From: a virus
IMG/VR virus record: IMGVR_UViG_3300035698_009132
Location: 1-22,894 of that record
Length of the DNA stretch: 22,894 nt
Strand: one strand, 5' to 3'
Part shown: positions 1,652 to 10,388 of the stretch, in pieces
How the letters are laid out: every line of letters starts with the position of its first letter
Numbering within the stretch: the stretch's first letter is position 1
Program-made: the position numbers and the translations under genes
Notes under the pieces: model-generated
Seen by the model: only the letters and a program-made list of their open reading frames with translations
Told to the model about the DNA's origin: nothing
Database searches by the model: none

Positions 1652-1658
1652 GAATAGG

Positions 1659-1684
1659 ATGGGTAGGGTTTTGGCTCTACCCAT
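1659..1684 (+). promoter_or_regulatory. Intercistronic hairpin that may present the ribosome binding site of the next gene
   Basis: ATGGGTAG (1659-1666) pairs perfectly with CTACCCAT (1677-1684). One wobble and one G-C pair extend this to 10 bp around a 6-base loop (TTTTGG). No U-tract follows, so it is a poor terminator. The 15 bases before the ATG at 1692 have no Shine-Dalgarno match. However, AGGA at 1656-1659 lies at the foot of the stem, and folding the hairpin would bring it to about 7-8 bases from that ATG. A folded ribosome binding site of this kind has been described for phage T4 gene 38. Confidence 0.55.
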
Positions 1685-1691
1685 TTAACTC

Positions 1692-3050
1692 ATGAAAAAA
1701 TACATACTTGTAATAGTCCTTGCTCTCTTTTTGTGCGGTGGTGTGTTTGCGTCAAGCATTCTCACTATCGCACAACAGGAAATACTCACCGCTATTGAAG
1801 GCGGTGCGTCATGTTCTGAGGCAATTGAGGACACGCTCAACGTCATATATGACGCTCTTAGCCATGTGCCAAAGTTCGGTGGAACTATCTGGTTTGTGAG
1901 TGAAGGCGGGAGTGATGATAGTTCTGGTCGTGATCCACATCAAGCATTTCTGACTATCGGTAACGCTCTTGATAGCACTGTATCTGGCGATGCTGTATCT
2001 GTTATGGCTGGAACTTACACTGGGGTTGGGCTTGTTCTTGGCGAAGCTGGAGTTAAAGACAACCTTGAAATGTGGTGTGAGATCGGTACTATCATATCCC
2101 CTGCAAGTGGTATCGCTTTAACCATAGCAGGTAATTACTGTAAGTTGATTGGTGAAGTGTCGATATTCCCAACTGGTGCAGCCGGTCTTTTGGTTAGCGG
2201 TGCAAACTGTGTTATATCTGAAGTCAAATCACTCGCCGCTGGGGTTGGAACAGACTGCTATCATATCACAGGTGCCGGGGTAGTAATGACTCGGTGTGTT
2301 GGCGGTTTCCCAACTGCAACGTATGCTGGATTTAATATATCTGGCGCACAAGGAAGATTTTATGAATGCTCTGTTGTAGGCAATACAACATCTTACGGTT
2401 ATCATATTCAGGGTGGAGTTGATACAGGTGTTATATCTAACGCTACATCAACCGGGCACGCTTCAGGCGGGTATTACATTGATGCCAATTCTACTGACTG
2501 GACAATCCTTGATTGCTCTTCTGGTGGCGGCGATGGTAAATGGGTAGATGTTGACCATGCTAATATATGGAGTGGGTTTACATATCCAGAGACAAAATAT
2601 AAATCCATTACACTTGACAATAGTCATGCCTACAATCTGTTTGAGATTACTGGCGGCGTTGAAATTATTGAGATATCTGGAACTGTTACGACTACACTGG
2701 AGGGGGCAAATACGGATGTATCTTTTCAGCTTTATGGGAGTACCGGACCAAATACAGACATAATAACCAAAGCCACTGATGCTGACATGGGAACCGCAGC
2801 TGTCGGTTCTATCGTTATAAAAACAGAAGATCCCGGTAAAAAAGTAACGTTCCTGTCTGCTGGCGTACCGTCAGTTGACAAAGGTACAGACCCGAAAAAG
2901 AAAAAGGCAACATTGGTGGCTGCGCTCACTGGTACTACGCATATTAGATGGGTATGCGCTGGTAATAACGATACTTCAGGAGCCATAGACTTCCATGTTG
3001 AATGGCGACCGATGAACGATGATGGATTTTTAGAGCCGTACACTCCGTAA
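1692..3050 (+). CDS. Right-handed beta-helix (pectate-lyase-like) protein with signal peptide; tailspike candidate
   Basis: Encodes 452 residues. Residues 1-20 are a signal peptide (MKKY, core ILVIVLALFL, cleavage VFA|S after Ala20). Residues 65-110 contain the entry motif of DUF1565/pectate-lyase-fold proteins: a strand IWFVSEGGSDDSSGRDP, then an AFLTIGNAL helix and the sequence VSVMAGTYTG. Residues about 110-290 are short repeated turns typical of a beta-helix (for example NCVISEVKSL, GRFYECSVVG, DWTILDCSSGG). The remaining residues form a separate beta-sandwich-like domain ending IRWVCAGNND and FHVEWRP. In phages such folds usually bind or degrade surface polysaccharide, so a tailspike or depolymerase is the leading guess; I see no assignable catalytic residues. 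The signal peptide is unexpected for a tailspike and leaves open a secreted enzyme. Its stop overlaps the terminase start by one base (TAATG). Confidence 0.8.
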   Translation: MKKYILVIVLALFLCGGVFASSILTIAQQEILTAIEGGASCSEAIEDTLNVIYDALSHVPKFGGTIWFVSEGGSDDSSGRDPHQAFLTIGNALDSTVSGDAVSVMAGTYTGVGLVLGEAGVKDNLEMWCEIGTIISPASGIALTIAGNYCKLIGEVSIFPTGAAGLLVSGANCVISEVKSLAAGVGTDCYHITGAGVVMTRCVGGFPTATYAGFNISGAQGRFYECSVVGNTTSYGYHIQGGVDTGVISNATSTGHASGGYYIDANSTDWTILDCSSGGGDGKWVDVDHANIWSGFTYPETKYKSITLDNSHAYNLFEITGGVEIIEISGTVTTTLEGANTDVSFQLYGSTGPNTDIITKATDADMGTAAVGSIVIKTEDPGKKVTFLSAGVPSVDKGTDPKKKKATLVAALTGTTHIRWVCAGNNDTSGAIDFHVEWRPMNDDGFLEPYTP

Positions 3051-4855
3051 TGAACAAGCGAGATTTATCCCTACTTACGGAGCAGTTGGCGTGGGCTAAG
3101 GACTTTAATAATTTCCCTGAGTACTGCAAGAGGTACATGAAGATCCAGACGAAAGAGCATGGACTTCAGCCGTTGATCCTTAACCCTCCGCAGATGAAAT
3201 TATTTAACAAGATATTGTATAATATCAAGAACGGTTTACCGCTTTATTTCATAATACTAAAAGCGAGGCAGATGGGCTTTTCGACGGTGATCGAAGCGAT
3301 CATCACTTGGCTGACGATGTACAACGCTGACTGGAGATCTGCAATCATAGCGCATGGTTCGACCCCGGCGAGCAACTTGTACAATATGTTCAAGATTTAT
3401 CACAAGTATATTCCGGATGACATAAAGTCAGCATTGTTGAGTTCTGGCAACGAGAAGGTGTTGAAGTTCAAGGATACAAGATCGTCTGTGAACATCTTCA
3501 CCGCGGAGAACCCGCAAGCAACATCGTCTGGAACGTTCCAATCGGTGCATATATCTGAACTGTCAAAGTGGCGTGATCAACGAACCGCAATGGTATCGTT
3601 GGAACAGACCATACCGCGTAATGCTTTTGTAGCGATTGAGTCAACAGCATTTGGAGTTGGTAACGAGTTCCATAAAAAATGGGTATCGGCTGAAGCTGGA
3701 AATAGTGATTACACCCCGTTGTTCTTCCCCTGGTATGAACATCAGGAGTACTTTGTTCCACTAAATGAAGGTGAGGTGATCGAACCGGATTTCGAGGAAA
3801 GATATTACTATGAAAAGTACAAACTTACTGACGAACAACTGAAATGGATGCGATGGTTTAGGGTTAATAAATGTAATGGTGAATGGAGTGTGTTCAAGCA
3901 GGAATACCCGGCAGATCCTGAAGAGGCGTTTATCTCGTCCGGTAGTCCAGTATTTGACATGCGAGTATTACAACGTAGAGAGCTTGAGATCGAGAAGAGT
4001 GAAGAGCCGATTATGCGTGGCGAATTTATCGTCAAAGAAGAAGAAGGTGGCAAGTACAAAGTAAACTGGTTGCCGAATGAAAGTCTGAATGACAACAACT
4101 TTGTAGAGATTTACGGTGCGCTTCCAGATCAGTATGATAAATGGAAGTATAGATATACGATTGGCGTTGATGTTTGCGAGGGTATTGATAGACAGGCAAC
4201 GGGTTCACCATCGAAAGACAAGAAGAGTTCTGGCGATACAGACTTCAATGCGATAAGTGTTTGGGACAAGATCAAGGGTAAGCAGGTTTTATTTGCCAGG
4301 AACAAATTTGACACGTATAGACTTGCAGAGCAGATCTTTGGTATAATGGTTTATTTTGGTGGCAATACAGACAAGACATCTTACCCGCTGACAGTGATTG
4401 AGCGTAACAATTCCGGACTTGCGGCGATAAGGTTCCTGATTGATTTGTATCTTCGAAAGTACGGGGTGCCGCTTGAGAGGTTATACCACACTGGAAAGTT
4501 CGACACGAATTACGAACCGACAGGTGATCAGTTAGGGTTCAGGACGAGTCAGCAGACTAAGCCGTTATTGATAAGTGAAATGCAACAGAGATTGATAAAT
4601 GGTACTGACGGGATACAGAGCAAACGTGTGATCAGGGAAGCAAAGACGTATGAGCGCAACGCAGCGGGTCAGATGAATGCTGTTCAGGGTCAATGGGACG
4701 ACGCTGTTATCGCACAGTGTCTGAGTTATGAAGGTGTAAGGAGAGATCATTTGCCAATGGAGTTGGTAGATAAAAAAAAGTTGACCGGATGGAGAAAGCG
4801 AGTGTTTGGCAACAAGTCTAAAAATGTGGGGTACTGGAGCAGTGGCGTTAAATAG
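3050..4855 (+). CDS. terL: Terminase large subunit (packaging ATPase and nuclease)
   Basis: Encodes 601 residues, a usual length for the family. The protein docks on the portal, pumps DNA into the prohead with ATP and cuts the concatemer. The ATPase half shows an adenine-binding-type LNPPQMKLF (44-52), Walker A KARQMGFST (71-79), Walker B region SVHISE (165-170, Glu170 the likely catalytic carboxylate) and a coupling motif IESTAFGVGN (196-205). A family hallmark QEYPADPEEAF (284-294) joins the halves. The RNase H-like nuclease half has Asp374 (IGVDVCEG), Glu451 (VIERNNSG) and Asp550/551 (QWDDAVIA). No Shine-Dalgarno precedes the ATG, which overlaps the previous stop as TAATG, so translation is probably coupled. 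No small-terminase candidate is recognised in this window. Confidence 0.96.
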   Translation: MNKRDLSLLTEQLAWAKDFNNFPEYCKRYMKIQTKEHGLQPLILNPPQMKLFNKILYNIKNGLPLYFIILKARQMGFSTVIEAIITWLTMYNADWRSAIIAHGSTPASNLYNMFKIYHKYIPDDIKSALLSSGNEKVLKFKDTRSSVNIFTAENPQATSSGTFQSVHISELSKWRDQRTAMVSLEQTIPRNAFVAIESTAFGVGNEFHKKWVSAEAGNSDYTPLFFPWYEHQEYFVPLNEGEVIEPDFEERYYYEKYKLTDEQLKWMRWFRVNKCNGEWSVFKQEYPADPEEAFISSGSPVFDMRVLQRRELEIEKSEEPIMRGEFIVKEEEGGKYKVNWLPNESLNDNNFVEIYGALPDQYDKWKYRYTIGVDVCEGIDRQATGSPSKDKKSSGDTDFNAISVWDKIKGKQVLFARNKFDTYRLAEQIFGIMVYFGGNTDKTSYPLTVIERNNSGLAAIRFLIDLYLRKYGVPLERLYHTGKFDTNYEPTGDQLGFRTSQQTKPLLISEMQQRLINGTDGIQSKRVIREAKTYERNAAGQMNAVQGQWDDAVIAQCLSYEGVRRDHLPMELVDKKKLTGWRKRVFGNKSKNVGYWSSGVK

Positions 4856-6659
4856 TAAAGAAAATAACGAGATTGTTGATGAAGTAATCCATACCCACTC
4901 TTACTATGTCCAAGAGTACCAAACTCGCCTTGATATGATTCGCAAGAACAATAGCATGGTAAACGGTGATCAGTGGGATGCGAAAAAGAAGGCTAAACTC
5001 AACAAACAAGGTCGTCCAACGTTAAGTTTGAACATTGAGTTGCCGTTAGTGCTACAACTCATTGGTACAATGACAAGCAATAAACGTTCGATCAAAATTA
5101 TACCCGTTGACAACACTGCTGATGACCAGATAGCCACTATCCTAACCAAGCTTTTATTGCATATAGACAACAGAAGTATCAATGATGTTGAGTATCTTGA
5201 TGAACAGCAATTCTCCGCTGGCGTGATCGGCAGTTCAGGCTGGCAATTTATAGACGTCGAATATGAAGAAGATCCACTTGGAGAGATAAGGGTTTATTCC
5301 GAGAAGAATACCGACATACTTGTTGATCCAGACGCTGTAACGATTGACCAAAAGGACTGGAAGAAGGTCATACGGCGTAGATGGATGTCTTGGAGTGCTA
5401 TACGGTTTGAGTGGAATAATGTTGTCAAGGAGAAGAGTCCAGGCTATTTCAAGAGAATATGGGAAGCGACAATCGAAAGACTCAAACCTGATCTGCGCGA
5501 CAAAGGCATAGATGATCTTGTGACACAGAACAACAATATGTTCAGGGTGATAGAGCAGTGGGAACGTAAGAAAGAGCGCGTCGTGAGTATTCAGAACCCT
5601 GCTGATGGTGAGATCATGCAGGTTAAGCCAGGCAAGATAGCTGATGAACTTATTGAGAAACATGGTTGGGGATTGATACATCAGGGCATTCGGTATTATC
5701 TGGATGTCAAAACTGTTCTGCCGTTCACTAATCAGGTACTTGAAAGAAAGCGTTACAATTATTATTACTATCCGTTTGCTGGTTATTTCCCATTGAAGTT
5801 TAGCGGATTGCCGCTTATTGATGGTATATCCTATGTTGAGAACCTTCACGGAGCGCAGGAAGAAAAGAATAACATGCGATCCGTTATGCAGGACACACTT
5901 CAGCGAACTCCTGTTGGCGGAGCAATCTTGCCACCTGGTGAAGATGCGTTACTTGAAGAAATGCGAGTGCATGGATCTGAGCCTGGATTTTTTGGTATTC
6001 GAGAAGGCACAAACGGTATAATTGAATGGTTAAAACAGAATTTTCCTACTGGCTGGCATCATTTGTCATTGTCTAACGATGTTGACATTCAAAGAATATC
6101 GGCAATGCCATTGGCACAACAGGGCATATCTGAAAGTTCAAGCGAGTCTGGTACGCTGTTTAACTCAAAGGTTGCACAGGGTTTGACTTCGATGGGCATG
6201 ATGTTCTCTAATTTCAAACGTGCGAGAAAGCTTGCTGCAAATATTAAGATAGAGCGGATACAAAAGACCTATACGCAAGAGCGGATATACAGAATAATTG
6301 GCGAAGAGAACAGTGAGGTTGTACCGGTCAATGTTCAGTACGGAGCCGGACAAATACTTAACGACGTGTCTGTTGGGAAGTACGACGCTATCGTTGATGA
6401 AGTTGAACACATCAATAATTACAGCGAGGGTGAACTCAAGGCATTGGCTGAAGTAGCGAAGGGCGTTCTGCCGTTGTTACCGCCGAGTATTGCGATAGAG
6501 TACCTTGCTGAAATGATAAATAATACCACGCTTGAGAACAAGAAGCGTTTCAGGGATATGTTGTTAGGGGCTGCAAAGCAGATGGAAGGACAACCGGCCG
6601 GTGGAGCGCAACAAGGTCAAGGTGGAACAAATAACACAGAACAAACGCAACTTCAGTGA
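4824..6659 (+). CDS. Portal protein, P22 gp1-like
   Basis: Encodes about 611 residues from the ATG at 4824, overlapping the terminase end by 32 bases. The same frame has a TTG at 4806 with a distant GGAG (4791-4794, 11 bases), so the start is uncertain. The N-terminal motif with NGDQWD and GRPTLSLN, followed by an MTSNKRSIKIIPVD segment and a helix-rich wing, matches the P22-type portal family, in which 12 subunits form the DNA channel at one capsid vertex. A repeat of acidic and aromatic residues follows (FIDVEYEEDPLGEI, DILVDPDAV), also usual for that family. The last 30 residues are Gly/Gln-rich and probably disordered. Placement directly after the terminase and before the scaffold agrees. 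Confidence 0.93.
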   Translation: MWGTGAVALNSKENNEIVDEVIHTHSYYVQEYQTRLDMIRKNNSMVNGDQWDAKKKAKLNKQGRPTLSLNIELPLVLQLIGTMTSNKRSIKIIPVDNTADDQIATILTKLLLHIDNRSINDVEYLDEQQFSAGVIGSSGWQFIDVEYEEDPLGEIRVYSEKNTDILVDPDAVTIDQKDWKKVIRRRWMSWSAIRFEWNNVVKEKSPGYFKRIWEATIERLKPDLRDKGIDDLVTQNNNMFRVIEQWERKKERVVSIQNPADGEIMQVKPGKIADELIEKHGWGLIHQGIRYYLDVKTVLPFTNQVLERKRYNYYYYPFAGYFPLKFSGLPLIDGISYVENLHGAQEEKNNMRSVMQDTLQRTPVGGAILPPGEDALLEEMRVHGSEPGFFGIREGTNGIIEWLKQNFPTGWHHLSLSNDVDIQRISAMPLAQQGISESSSESGTLFNSKVAQGLTSMGMMFSNFKRARKLAANIKIERIQKTYTQERIYRIIGEENSEVVPVNVQYGAGQILNDVSVGKYDAIVDEVEHINNYSEGELKALAEVAKGVLPLLPPSIAIEYLAEMINNTTLENKKRFRDMLLGAAKQMEGQPAGGAQQGQGGTNNTEQTQLQ

Positions 6660-6662
6660 GTA

Positions 6663-6738
6663 TCGGGATTCTGGCAATCGCCACCCTGAGAAAGCGGAGG
6701 ATTGAAAAGTAACCGGATTCTGGCTAACGCCACCCGGT
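6663..6738 (+). repeat. Tandem imperfect direct repeats, each able to fold as a bulged hairpin
   Basis: Between portal and scaffold, GGATTCTGGC-N3-CGCCACCC occurs at 6666-6686 and again at 6715-6735; the 21-base units differ at only two positions, both in the loop. Each unit folds as TGGC-4 bases-GCCA above a bulge containing ATTC and a G/C-rich foot. In copy 1 the foot is GGG with CCC; in copy 2 it is ACCGG (6712-6716) with CCGGT (6734-6738). Thus the pairing potential is kept although the foot sequence changes. The copies are 49 bases apart, and each is followed by a purine-rich GGAGG or GAGGA; the second GAGGA is the scaffold ribosome binding site. A regulatory RNA or protein-binding site for scaffold/capsid expression is plausible. 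Confidence 0.6.
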
Positions 6739-6761
6739 AAAACGCAATAGCAGAGGATAAG

Positions 6762-7637
6762 ATGAACCCGGAAGACAACGAAAACCCAAATGTTAATCTT
6801 GATGAAGTCAGGTTTAACGACGACGGTACTGTAGAGATTAAGGCTGACACGCCTCCTGATTTACCAAAATATGAAGCGTTACCAGCTGATTTCGATCCAT
6901 CGAAGTATGGACTGGTAAAGCCGGAAGATGCTGCCGCTACGAAGGTAGAGCAAGATCGGTTGACGGCTGAAAATGCGAATTTGCAGAAACGCTTTGAGGA
7001 TACACAGAGAGATTATCATAGTAATCTGCAACAGCAAAGCGCACGAGTGATACAGGCAGATCAGCAGTATCAACAGCAACCGCAGTATCAACAACAGTAC
7101 CAACCCCCAGCACAGCAAAAGCCTAAAGAGACGGCAGCGCAGGCATGGGATGCACATTTGAAGAACCCAACACAGGCTTCAATGGATTACTACTACACTG
7201 TCAAAGCCAACGAGGACTCGGCAAATGCGATGGCACCCATGATGCAACAGATGCGACAGATGATCCAGCAACAACAGGGTTACACACAACAAGCGACTGA
7301 TCGCGTGTCTATTCAGAGTAACCCGATGTTCAAGGGGATTGATTACAATGCAATGGATAAGTCGTTCCAGGCTCAACCTGGTACGCAGGAAGAGACAGCA
7401 TTTGTGCATTTGGTTCGCGAGGCTGGCGGTATCGAAAAATATCACGAGCAACTACGAAAGACCCACAATGACAAACTGATATTGGACATCAAGACTGCGA
7501 AGGCAAAGAATCCTGGCAAGGGTAAGTTGACTGCTGGTTCAAGCCCTAAACCTTCATCCGGTAATGACATCATGGAACATCCTGAGAATTACACTGAGGC
7601 TGAAATGATAGCACACATGAAACGGATGGAGATATAA
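6762..7637 (+). CDS. Capsid scaffolding protein
   Basis: Encodes 291 residues; AGAGGA (6752-6757) lies 4 bases before the ATG. The N-terminus (1-58) is acidic and Pro-rich. Residues about 59-90 look like a coiled coil (VEQDRLTAENANLQKRFED), then a Gln-rich tract (about 90-122, QQYQQQPQYQQQ) and another methionine/glutamine-rich helix near 160-175. The C-terminal 100 residues are charged and helical, ending in a basic and Gly/Ser linker and a small acidic-basic helix. No enzyme motif is present. Position between portal and capsid genes, length and helical, highly charged composition are those of phage scaffolds, which nucleate capsid assembly and leave the prohead. There is no sign of a protease domain. 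The Gln tract is encoded by mixed CAA and CAG codons, so it is not a simple nucleotide repeat. Confidence 0.82.
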   Translation: MNPEDNENPNVNLDEVRFNDDGTVEIKADTPPDLPKYEALPADFDPSKYGLVKPEDAAATKVEQDRLTAENANLQKRFEDTQRDYHSNLQQQSARVIQADQQYQQQPQYQQQYQPPAQQKPKETAAQAWDAHLKNPTQASMDYYYTVKANEDSANAMAPMMQQMRQMIQQQQGYTQQATDRVSIQSNPMFKGIDYNAMDKSFQAQPGTQEETAFVHLVREAGGIEKYHEQLRKTHNDKLILDIKTAKAKNPGKGKLTAGSSPKPSSGNDIMEHPENYTEAEMIAHMKRMEI

Positions 7638-7666
7638 ACCAATTTCGAACATAAGGAGATTTTATA

Positions 7667-8938
7667 TTGTCGTTTGATTTTACACGACTAAACGAACTCA
7701 CTCCTCAGGCTATTGCGAAACTCGCAAGAGCTGAGACGTGGTTCAACTCACCATGGGCACCATATATTTCGACCATCGAGAACTCGGTGGAACGAAAAAT
7801 GGCTGGCATGGGAGATTTAGAACCCACTGGCGCACCTATCACGCGCTACACGGAGTTCGCCAAAGAGGGAACAGACACCCTTTATGTCCCACAGTACGGC
7901 AGATTGTATGGCGAAGGTATCTACGGAGATAATGACCTTGCAGGGACAGAAGAAGATCTCGAAGTTTACAGAGCGCAGGTGATAATTAACGCTATCGCCC
8001 ATGCCGTGAACGTAAAGAAGGGTCCGATGAACGCATTGCGCTCGTCAGGGATTGATGGCAACACAGGCGAGATGGGTCAGATGATGCAGGGTAAGCCGGC
8101 ATTGTCAGGATGGTTCAGCGATAAACTGTCATGGGAAGTCTCACAGGCTTTCTATCGCGGTTACAATCCTGCTGTACTTGCCGCTGCCGCTGATGGCGGT
8201 CCAGCAATATCCCAACGCAACCACCCGCACTTCTGGGTTGCAGATCACGGCTTTGTCACATGGAGTGCAACACATGCTACATATAATGCCAGCATCGAGG
8301 ATGCGCTTCAGACAATGGAAGGCGGAGCAACCGTCGAACGAGCGATGACAGCCGAGTTGCTTGAGGCTTTGAAACCTGCGCTGATCAAAAAGCGTATTGC
8401 CCCGGCGTTGATTAAGGATGGTAAAAAGTTCTGGTTCTTGTTTGTGCATCCGGACGTTATGGCACAGGCTCGCCAAGACGACAAGATTATGACTTCAACT
8501 CAGAGCGCATTCCGCTCCGGACAGTTGAAAGATCCGATGTTGACTGGCGTTGAATTGTTCTACAACGGCTTTGCGCTGAAAGAGAATTTGATCGCCGCTC
8601 CGGAAATCCACGAGGATGGATCTGACAATATTCTGTATGGTCCGACCAATGCTGCCGAGGATACGCTGCTTAACCCGCTCCTGTATGTTGAATCGACTGA
8701 TGAAATTGACAGGAATTTGAAGGCGAGTTTGATACTCGGATCTAATGCTCTTTCCATTGGCGAATTGTCAAATGGTGAGATGGTAGTCGAAGACAGCGGA
8801 ACGTACAAGCGTAAAGCTTCCGTTGGTATGACGACTATCTTTGGCGCAGCTCGCAATGACTCTTACGATGTCATTGACGGTGCAACAGCAGTCAAGAACT
8901 TCGGTTCAATGGTTGTTGTAACAAACTCACCTGAATAG
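7667..8938 (+). CDS. Major capsid protein, N4-gp56/DUF4043-like
   Basis: Encodes 423 residues from a TTG codon. AAGGAG (7653-7658) is 8 bases upstream, no in-frame ATG occurs before codon 46, and the sequence from residue 1 is coherent, so the TTG start is well supported. The stretch around residues 78-113 (YGRLYGEGIYGDNDLAGTEE, then LEVYRAQVIINAIAHAV) matches the conserved core of N4-gp56/DUF4043 capsid proteins, where a GD..L.G.EE motif is followed by a V.I...RHAV-like strand. Further on, the WFSDKLSWEVSQAF helix (about 147-160) also fits. The protein builds the icosahedral shell. It sits directly after the scaffold, 29 bases apart. A TTG start for what should be the most abundant phage protein is noteworthy. 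Confidence 0.9.
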   Translation: MSFDFTRLNELTPQAIAKLARAETWFNSPWAPYISTIENSVERKMAGMGDLEPTGAPITRYTEFAKEGTDTLYVPQYGRLYGEGIYGDNDLAGTEEDLEVYRAQVIINAIAHAVNVKKGPMNALRSSGIDGNTGEMGQMMQGKPALSGWFSDKLSWEVSQAFYRGYNPAVLAAAADGGPAISQRNHPHFWVADHGFVTWSATHATYNASIEDALQTMEGGATVERAMTAELLEALKPALIKKRIAPALIKDGKKFWFLFVHPDVMAQARQDDKIMTSTQSAFRSGQLKDPMLTGVELFYNGFALKENLIAAPEIHEDGSDNILYGPTNAAEDTLLNPLLYVESTDEIDRNLKASLILGSNALSIGELSNGEMVVEDSGTYKRKASVGMTTIFGAARNDSYDVIDGATAVKNFGSMVVVTNSPE

Positions 8939-8946
8939 GAGAAATT

Positions 8947-9228
8947 ATGTCCGATCCTACTTTCACGAAAAAAGTTGGTAACCGCCGGACTGCATGGTTC
9001 ACTGGACCAGTGGTTTCCGGTGATCCGTTACCCACTGATGGGTATAAAAACTTTGCAATGCTTCAGGACACTGAGGGAAACAAGGTGTCGTTCATTATCA
9101 GTGAGGGTGCGCCAAGTACCGACTACACTGGAGCTGGCATCTGTTCACTATGCTTTGATATAACCAATGGCAACATCTACCTGAATCATGACGGCGTAGA
9201 TGATTGGGATCAAATCACTGCGTCTTAG
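8947..9228 (+). CDS. Small head protein, decoration or head-fibre candidate
   Basis: Encodes 93 residues; AGGAG ends 6 bases before the ATG, which is 8 bases after the capsid stop. It is all-beta by appearance, without signal peptide or membrane segment. The C-terminal third (GAGICSLCFDITNGNIYLN, then a W near the end) follows a pattern often seen in short phage head-fibre or decoration proteins, in which a G.G.. strand is followed by D.TNG.(I/L)Y.N and a terminal tryptophan strand. Position directly after the capsid gene agrees with a decoration or stabilising role. A CxxC pair (ICSLCF) is present but no metal site is evident. A role is inferred from position and pattern only. Confidence 0.7.
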   Translation: MSDPTFTKKVGNRRTAWFTGPVVSGDPLPTDGYKNFAMLQDTEGNKVSFIISEGAPSTDYTGAGICSLCFDITNGNIYLNHDGVDDWDQITAS

Positions 9229-9241
9229 TGTACGTAATTTA

Positions 9242-9267
9242 GAGAGGGGATTTAACTATCCCCTCTC
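9242..9267 (+). promoter_or_regulatory. Strong intercistronic hairpin without U-tract
   Basis: GAGAGGGGAT (9242-9251) and ATCCCCTCTC (9258-9267) form a perfect 10-bp stem with a TTAACT loop. The following bases (ACAAACTTTG) are not a U-tract, so efficient intrinsic termination is not expected. It lies after the capsid and small head genes and could act as a 3' stabiliser or processing site that keeps capsid message abundant relative to downstream genes, or as a partial terminator. The next gene has its own ribosome binding site (GAGG, 9276-9279). Confidence 0.65.
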
Positions 9268-9285
9268 ACAAACTTTGAGGACAAT

Positions 9286-9699
9286 ATGGCTGATATGATA
9301 GCAATCGAACGGAACGTTAGTGACGTTTACTCGCGCAAACAGGTTCACAGATTTGGAACAAAAGGGCGCAAAGGGAAAGTGTACAAATGGCCTGAACACG
9401 CCCCATCGGTACTCAGTGTTCCAGTTGAATTTGGAGAACACCTCGCCAAAACGATGCCTGATAAATTCAGTGTATCTGACAAAATAGCGCCGAGCATCAA
9501 CGCCACAGGTAAGAATACCGTACCTGGGTTGGTTGCGGATGGCGATACTGCCATTGACCTTGCTTCATGTTCGAGCGATGATATGGTTGTTGAGTTACGC
9601 AAGCGAGGCTGGCGTGGAATGCGCCCCCCGAAGCCAAAAGAAGAACCCAAAGAGACGGTTAAGGTTTCTGACACAGAACCCAAAGACGACGCTGAATAA
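9286..9699 (+). CDS. Head-region protein of unknown function with charged C-terminal tail
   Basis: Encodes 137 residues with a GAGG site (9276-9279) 6 bases before the ATG. I do not recognise the family. The N-terminal part is basic and probably beta-rich (KGRKGKVYKWPEHA near 26-39). Residues about 93-108 (SSDDMVVELRKRGWRGMR) form a short helix-extension element resembling HeH/LEM or SAP-type motifs found at the ends of some phage head proteins, but the match is weak. The last 28 residues are Lys, Glu, Pro and Asp-rich and probably disordered. It lies between the decoration candidate and the adaptors, so a capsid accessory or connector role is likely. Its stop overlaps the next start (TAATG). 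Confidence 0.7.
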   Translation: MADMIAIERNVSDVYSRKQVHRFGTKGRKGKVYKWPEHAPSVLSVPVEFGEHLAKTMPDKFSVSDKIAPSINATGKNTVPGLVADGDTAIDLASCSSDDMVVELRKRGWRGMRPPKPKEEPKETVKVSDTEPKDDAE

Positions 9700-10388
9700 T
9701 GGCGACACTTCTTCAGTTACGCACAAGATTGCGGTATCGGCTTGATGATGTCGATACCGCTAATCCGCGGATAGTTGACGCTAACTACAACACCTGGATC
9801 AATAGCGCATTGAAGCGGATAGCGCGAGAGGCGTTATGTTTCAAGGATACTGACACAATCACCGGTGACGGATCTACAGGCTATACCTTGATCGGAACTC
9901 TCGCAACAAACCTTGCATCTGACTATTATCTCATGCACGGTGTCGATGTTGATTATAGCGCAATTATAGCATGGACTGGAACTACACACAAGATATTACG
10001 CCAAGTTGACATTGAGCGGATACGCGAAGAGGTTGTGGCTGTATCTGGTACTTTACCTGCCGATGAACTTCCAACCATGTATGCGCTGTACGGGAATACA
10101 ATTTATCTCAATGCACAGATTGTGGCTGGAGCTATAATTCATGGCAGATACTTTGGAACTCCCGTAGCATTGACTGTTGACGGTACTTCACCAGAAGCCC
10201 CGCTTGACACATGGGACTCGTTAGTTGTTGCGGCGGCAAGACTTGAACACACAGTTGATGAAGAAGGTGGTAATCTTGACTCTTCGGTTGTTGTGGGCGC
10301 GACAAAAGAATATCAAACTGAGTTGAAAAAGTTCCTTCAATTCTTCCCGAACGAGAGTTACGGCACCGCAAGGCAGGAGAGAGGCTAA
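9699..10388 (+). CDS. Head-tail adaptor protein, copy 1
   Basis: Encodes 229 residues. The N-terminal helix LRTRLRYRLDD followed by NTWINSALKRIA (31-42) is the usual opening of phage adaptor (gp6/gp11-type) proteins that form a ring below the portal. A DGSTGYTLIG strand and NLASDYY (71-77) follow. The C-terminal third is a helical region with ARLEHTVDEEGG and a terminal helix (TELKKFLQFF). The whole length aligns by eye with the next gene: TWIN...KRIA, T.DG, (L/V)IG, N.ASD, an IY.N strand, and the helix (V/L)..AARLE or AAMLE. No good Shine-Dalgarno is present; the start overlaps the previous stop as TAATG. Confidence 0.78.
   Translation: MATLLQLRTRLRYRLDDVDTANPRIVDANYNTWINSALKRIAREALCFKDTDTITGDGSTGYTLIGTLATNLASDYYLMHGVDVDYSAIIAWTGTTHKILRQVDIERIREEVVAVSGTLPADELPTMYALYGNTIYLNAQIVAGAIIHGRYFGTPVALTVDGTSPEAPLDTWDSLVVAAARLEHTVDEEGGNLDSSVVVGATKEYQTELKKFLQFFPNESYGTARQERG

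Follow-up and report, generated by a model that had tools for sequence, protein, structure and literature searches.

The head gene order and the gap before the presumed scaffold gene

The window, that is, the whole stretch of 22,894 bases that was analysed, corresponds to an entire virus record. Its head genes follow the order TerL, portal, presumed scaffold and capsid, with these features:

3050–4855: terminase large subunit gene
4806–6659, plus strand: portal protein gene, P22-like, 617 codons from the listed TTG (PF16510, E 1.2e-67; phrog_156 portal, E 3.5e-56)
6762–7637, plus strand: presumed scaffold gene, 291 aa, named only by its position between the portal and major capsid protein genes
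7667–8938, plus strand: major capsid protein gene (PF13252, E 1.6e-11; phrog_334, E 5.9e-21)

The portal stop codon (TGA) forms the left edge of a gap of 102 bases (6660–6761) that separates the portal gene from the presumed scaffold gene and is the longest gap between main genes of the window. The 291-aa ORF at 6762–7637 matched no PHROG or Pfam family; in a distant homologue (locus L039), the gene in the same place weakly matches a head scaffolding family (E 0.0097). As listed from its TTG start, the portal ORF shares 50 bases with the terminase gene (4806–4855), and the portal start may lie further inside the ORF. The phage is an orphan: for its portal, terminase, capsid and largest tail-region protein, the collections searched hold no homologue above about 37% identity.

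A tandem repeat is predicted to fold into two hairpins of the same shape

The gap contains a direct repeat, each copy of which lies within a hairpin (internal-loop bases in brackets):

6666–6686, plus strand: 21-base direct repeat, copy 1
6715–6735, plus strand: 21-base direct repeat, copy 2
6663–6689, plus strand: hairpin 1, UCGGG-[AUUC]-UGGC-AAUC-GCCA-[C]-CCUGA, MFE −9.7 kcal/mol folded alone
6712–6738, plus strand: hairpin 2, ACCGG-[AUUC]-UGGC-UAAC-GCCA-[C]-CCGGU, MFE −11.8 kcal/mol folded alone

The initial annotation had described two 21-base direct repeats with 19 identical positions, and both were located as described, with a start-to-start spacing of 49 bases. In register, the repeat extends to 35 bases at 80% identity (6659–6693 versus 6708–6742). 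When three mismatches are allowed, the repeat pattern occurs twice in the window, against 0.01 occurrences expected by chance. Folded alone, both copies give the same minimum-energy hairpin of nine pairs, with the TGGC-N4-GCCA core and the ATTC element that had been noticed in the sequence. Each hairpin is built from a foot of five pairs (6663–6667 with 6685–6689 in copy 1; 6712–6716 with 6734–6738 in copy 2), an AUUC internal loop facing a single C, a UGGC/GCCA stem and a 4-base loop. The earlier description of a bulged hairpin on a G/C foot holds for the pairing and needs amending in its details: the foot is not made of G and C alone, and the bulge has a C opposite it.

The copies differ at 7 of the 35 bases: four of the differences lie in two foot pairs, two in the loop and one outside the hairpin. 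From copy 1 to copy 2, both bases are replaced in each of these foot pairs (U-A to A-U and G-U to C-G) and no pair is broken, as expected from the proposal that foot pairing is conserved while its bases change. The 13 positions of the internal loop and distal stem carry none of the 7 differences (chance about 0.025 by a hypergeometric count). On the minus strand, the foot of copy 1 is unable to form in full, and in the modelled fold its G-U pair fits an RNA read from the plus strand.

Ribosome sites, coding capacity and termination

Each hairpin is followed by a purine-rich element:

6696–6701, plus strand: GGAGGA, purine-rich and SD-like, after hairpin 1; its GGAGG lies 1 base before the TTG of a 12-codon ORF
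6752–6757, plus strand: AGAGGA, 4 bases before ATG 6762 and probably the ribosome binding site of the presumed scaffold gene

A purine-rich element after each copy had been noticed, and both are present, though not in the same register (GGAGG begins 7 bases past hairpin 1 and AGAGGA 14 past hairpin 2), and ribosome-site spacing is found at the second only. The hairpins directly precede this ribosome site; hairpin 2 ends 13 bases upstream of the SD, which is predicted to be largely unpaired.

Two short ORFs run across the gap. One starts at GTG 6656, which shares bases with the portal stop (GTGA), and reads 18 codons through hairpin 1 to a TAA at 6710–6712; the other, the 12-codon ORF from the TTG, covers hairpin 2. 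Both lack a usable SD at the right distance. Aligned codons differ between the copies (I-N, G-R, I-N, L-R, R-stop), nearly all changes being non-synonymous. The spacing of 49 is not divisible by 3, and the stops fall in different places. Judged by these sequence features, the repeat is not coding. Intrinsic terminators were also looked for: no terminator-like site was found in 4700–9800, and no U run accompanies the hairpins.

Chance versus selection on the structure

Hairpins of the same shape occur at 8 places in the 22.9 kb, counting both strands and including these two copies, which corresponds to about one per 6 kb per strand. Under random drift with 7 substitutions, all nine pairs survive in 2.6% of simulations, and all pairs survive with at least two of them compensated in 0.11%. 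The MFE structure is retained in 0.5–0.8%, and retained with an energy as low as observed in 0.04–0.34%. Overall, the neutral-drift simulations give a probability of about 0.0004–0.008 for retaining the hairpin structure, a range that is optimistic since the feature was picked after reading 23 kb; the feature consists of two sequences from one genome. Random 35-mers from the window attain the observed consensus energy in 0.06% of cases. When the observed positions are mutated to random bases, all pairs survive in 14.7%, and thus much of the signal lies in where the changes fell. With partner columns slid by 1–3, 28–50% of cells are paired and no double change appears; a two-row shuffle control gave 125/500, in a test where two rows can never reach significance.

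The compensatory changes amount to two pairs between tandem copies of one genome. Together with the drift simulations, they support the proposal of the initial annotation that an RNA structure has been selected, beyond mere repetition, to the extent that two sequences can carry it. The structure is probably maintained as RNA. The suggestion that the element is the trace of a duplicated leader appears right as to origin, but duplication alone does not explain the compensated pairs.

Folding in longer context and hairpins in other gaps

Taken as a whole, the 110-base region shows no unusual stability (z −0.45), and its best fold pairs the 5′ arm of copy 1 with the 3′ arm of copy 2 (6661–6667 with 6734–6740), at −26.2 kcal/mol versus −21.5 for two hairpins. 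In the fold of 6640–6800, hairpin 2 is robust (pair probabilities 0.89–1.0); hairpin 1 keeps a stable distal stem and the probability of its foot falls to about 0.2. Pairings that compete with this foot, in which the 5′ arm of copy 1 joins the 3′ arm of copy 2 or scaffold codons, are no less stable. Prefix folds suggest that co-transcriptional folding would favour hairpin 1 first. Pairing of the 5′ arm with the opening codons of the scaffold gene, as a candidate switch, was rejected as nothing special: 13–22% of 34-base windows match its duplex energy.

Strong hairpins are present in all three gaps of at least 40 bases in the window (1652–1691, 9229–9285 and 6660–6761). The gap at 1652–1691 (40 bases, between genes ending at 1651 and starting at 1692) holds a 13-pair hairpin at 1657–1686 (z −3.7), and the gap at 9229–9285, which follows a small gene at 8947–9228, holds a perfect 10-pair hairpin at 9242–9267 (GAGAGGGGAT..ATCCCCTCTC, z −2.8). 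Each is a plain long stem that occurs once and has no U run after it. Intercistronic hairpins therefore seem habitual in this genome, so that an ordinary reading, as mRNA punctuation or stability, gains relative to a dedicated operator.

Relatives and further copies

In Rfam covariance models, nothing reached the gathering score in the whole window; with E up to 10, the only match in 6600–6850 was CRISPR-DR15 on the minus strand (E 3, 14.7 bits against a cut-off of 36). Single-protein scans of a viral collection with the portal and capsid gave no match, and a portal scan of genome contigs gave nothing confirmed. Alignment-based scans recovered distant homologues only, with best segments at 22–27% identity for the portal and up to about 36% for the terminase; the capsid scan gave about 20–37%, mostly low or short. 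Queried with portal, terminase or capsid, the viral collection and the phage records yielded no relative near enough to be expected to have this gap, and neither did the genome contigs queried with the portal; these scans may omit records that are very close to the window. Phage records showed no DNA similarity to 6500–6900.

The homologues at about 22–27% portal identity do not have the hairpin element and are too distant to count against it. Between the portal and the next gene they mostly have fewer than 12 bases or else coding sequence, and the gaps tested fold unremarkably except for one. This exception (L060, 2353–2435) is a portal-to-next-gene gap with a strong hairpin (z −4.0).

The exact hairpin pattern matched 9 times in viral contigs, and none of these matches had a further copy or flanks like those here. 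A covariance model built from the two copies found only those copies in the window; 160 other loci scored at chance level (best E 0.26). Matches to the distal-stem tandem pattern were rejected as coding-type repeats or as perfect palindromes of another hairpin (GTCATTCTGGC..GCCAGAAT), and in about 85,000 species genomes none had the flanking GG and CCC. With the distal stem left free, a pattern of tandem loop and foot matched 30 records, but in no case were all pairs of both hairpins present. Within the reach of these sequence searches, the hairpin element appears private to this phage. Many palindromes of the form GTCATTCTGGCGAAAGCCAGAATC...GATTCTGGCTTTCGCCAGAATGAC, in inverted pairs, were encountered in Candidatus Magasanikbacteria nzgw355 (L107, L109, L112, L113 and other JAHFIE01 contigs), and related forms in Kordiimonadaceae, Rickettsiaceae and others.

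Possible roles of the tandem hairpins

The reading that we favour, with a probability that we would call about even, is a cis-acting mRNA element: one hairpin would have been duplicated in tandem within the leader of a late operon, between the portal and scaffold genes. Selection would act on the hairpins as RNA, and they would act post-transcriptionally on the scaffold–capsid segment. By the most likely route, a protein or the translation or decay machinery would recognise the invariant AUUC/C and UGGC/GCCA parts, and the foot would be required merely to pair. The outcome would be a scaffold output set relative to that of the portal from a shared transcript. Such an element may take two main forms, a stem-loop for stability or processing that has no ligand and an operator bound by scaffold or capsid protein; our confidence in each of these forms overlaps with that in the general reading, and the values are not additive.

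As ordinary intercistronic stem-loops, the hairpins could protect, process or punctuate the late mRNA and set the amounts of portal versus scaffold–capsid mRNA with no dedicated ligand, which we regard as possible. Known stem-loops of this kind likewise lie between low-dose and high-dose genes of one operon. Here, a low-dose product (portal) precedes high-dose ones in the gene order, and the recurrence of strong hairpins in every gap of at least 40 bases agrees with this role. However, the hairpins of the other two gaps are simple and single-copy, whereas these are tandem copies with a conserved 4x1 internal loop, a fixed feature unnecessary for such a role. That loop, invariant like the distal stem above a covarying foot, resembles a protein site. 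In a translational operator, unassembled scaffold (or capsid) protein would bind the hairpins and repress its own translation, and two copies could allow cooperative binding. The P22 scaffolding protein (gene 8) is autoregulated post-transcriptionally, and the present phage resembles P22 in the order of TerL, portal, presumed scaffold and coat and in its P22-type portal family, with hairpins immediately upstream of the presumed scaffold start, where a control element would be expected; it differs in that its capsid and portal are only about 20–27% identical to any homologue found. In MS2/PP7-type coat-protein operators, a structural gene is preceded by a short hairpin that has a bulge or an internal loop and whose foot tolerates compensated changes. 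The tandem hairpins share the short form, the internal loop and the place upstream of a structural phage gene. They depart from the bulged A and fixed loop of those operators in having two copies, a 4x1 internal loop and a variable tetraloop, in a dsDNA phage with no coat-protein relation. Since no family matches the presumed scaffold, whose name derives from its position only, the SD beyond hairpin 2 is predicted to be largely unpaired and the element is absent from distant homologues, we consider the operator rather unlikely. Quite unlikely is its broader version, an undescribed class of RNA operator in which tandem AUUC/C hairpins bound by the scaffold or capsid protein of a dsDNA phage would serve self-control, as a tailed-phage counterpart of the RNA-phage coat operators.

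Other explanations would leave the hairpins with a different function or none. A recent and neutral tandem duplication of a hairpin-bearing leader, its compensated pairs arising by chance, is in keeping with there being just two copies, at 80% identity and a spacing of 49 bases, with the background frequency of same-shape hairpins and with an element conserved nowhere else searched; the drift simulations speak against it, and we think it doubtful. REP-like palindromic DNA elements acquired from a host are highly improbable here. Both copies are imperfect palindromes that carry a GTA prefix and lie between genes, and palindromes with a GGATTCTGGC-N4-GCCA core are found in several bacteria. REP elements are likewise imperfect palindromes of 20–40 bases in intergenic gaps with covarying stems, and within their families the stem bases alternate in complementary fashion and G-T pairs occur (PMC3733652). 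However, the GTAG/CGTC class is marked by one of these two tetranucleotides at its end, beside the stem (PMC3733652), whereas the copies here have GTAT and GTAA and occur only twice in the 22.9 kb of a phage record, in direct and not opposite orientation; the failure to find flanked tandem matches in species genomes also argues against this origin. Finally, a leader micro-ORF could toggle the hairpins if the 18 codons from GTG 6656 were translated up to the foot of hairpin 2. The reading frame does exist with these borders, but there is no upstream SD, no peptide conservation between the copies and one genome only, which makes this very improbable.

The favoured reading, a cis-acting mRNA element in the portal–scaffold leader, bears on how tailed phages set the portal (about a dozen per head) against scaffold and capsid proteins (hundreds) from one late transcript, a matter that at the RNA level is largely open. 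If the hairpins merely serve as stem-loops for stability or processing, they are ordinary. If they bind scaffold or capsid protein, they would provide a concrete RNA target for scaffold autoregulation.
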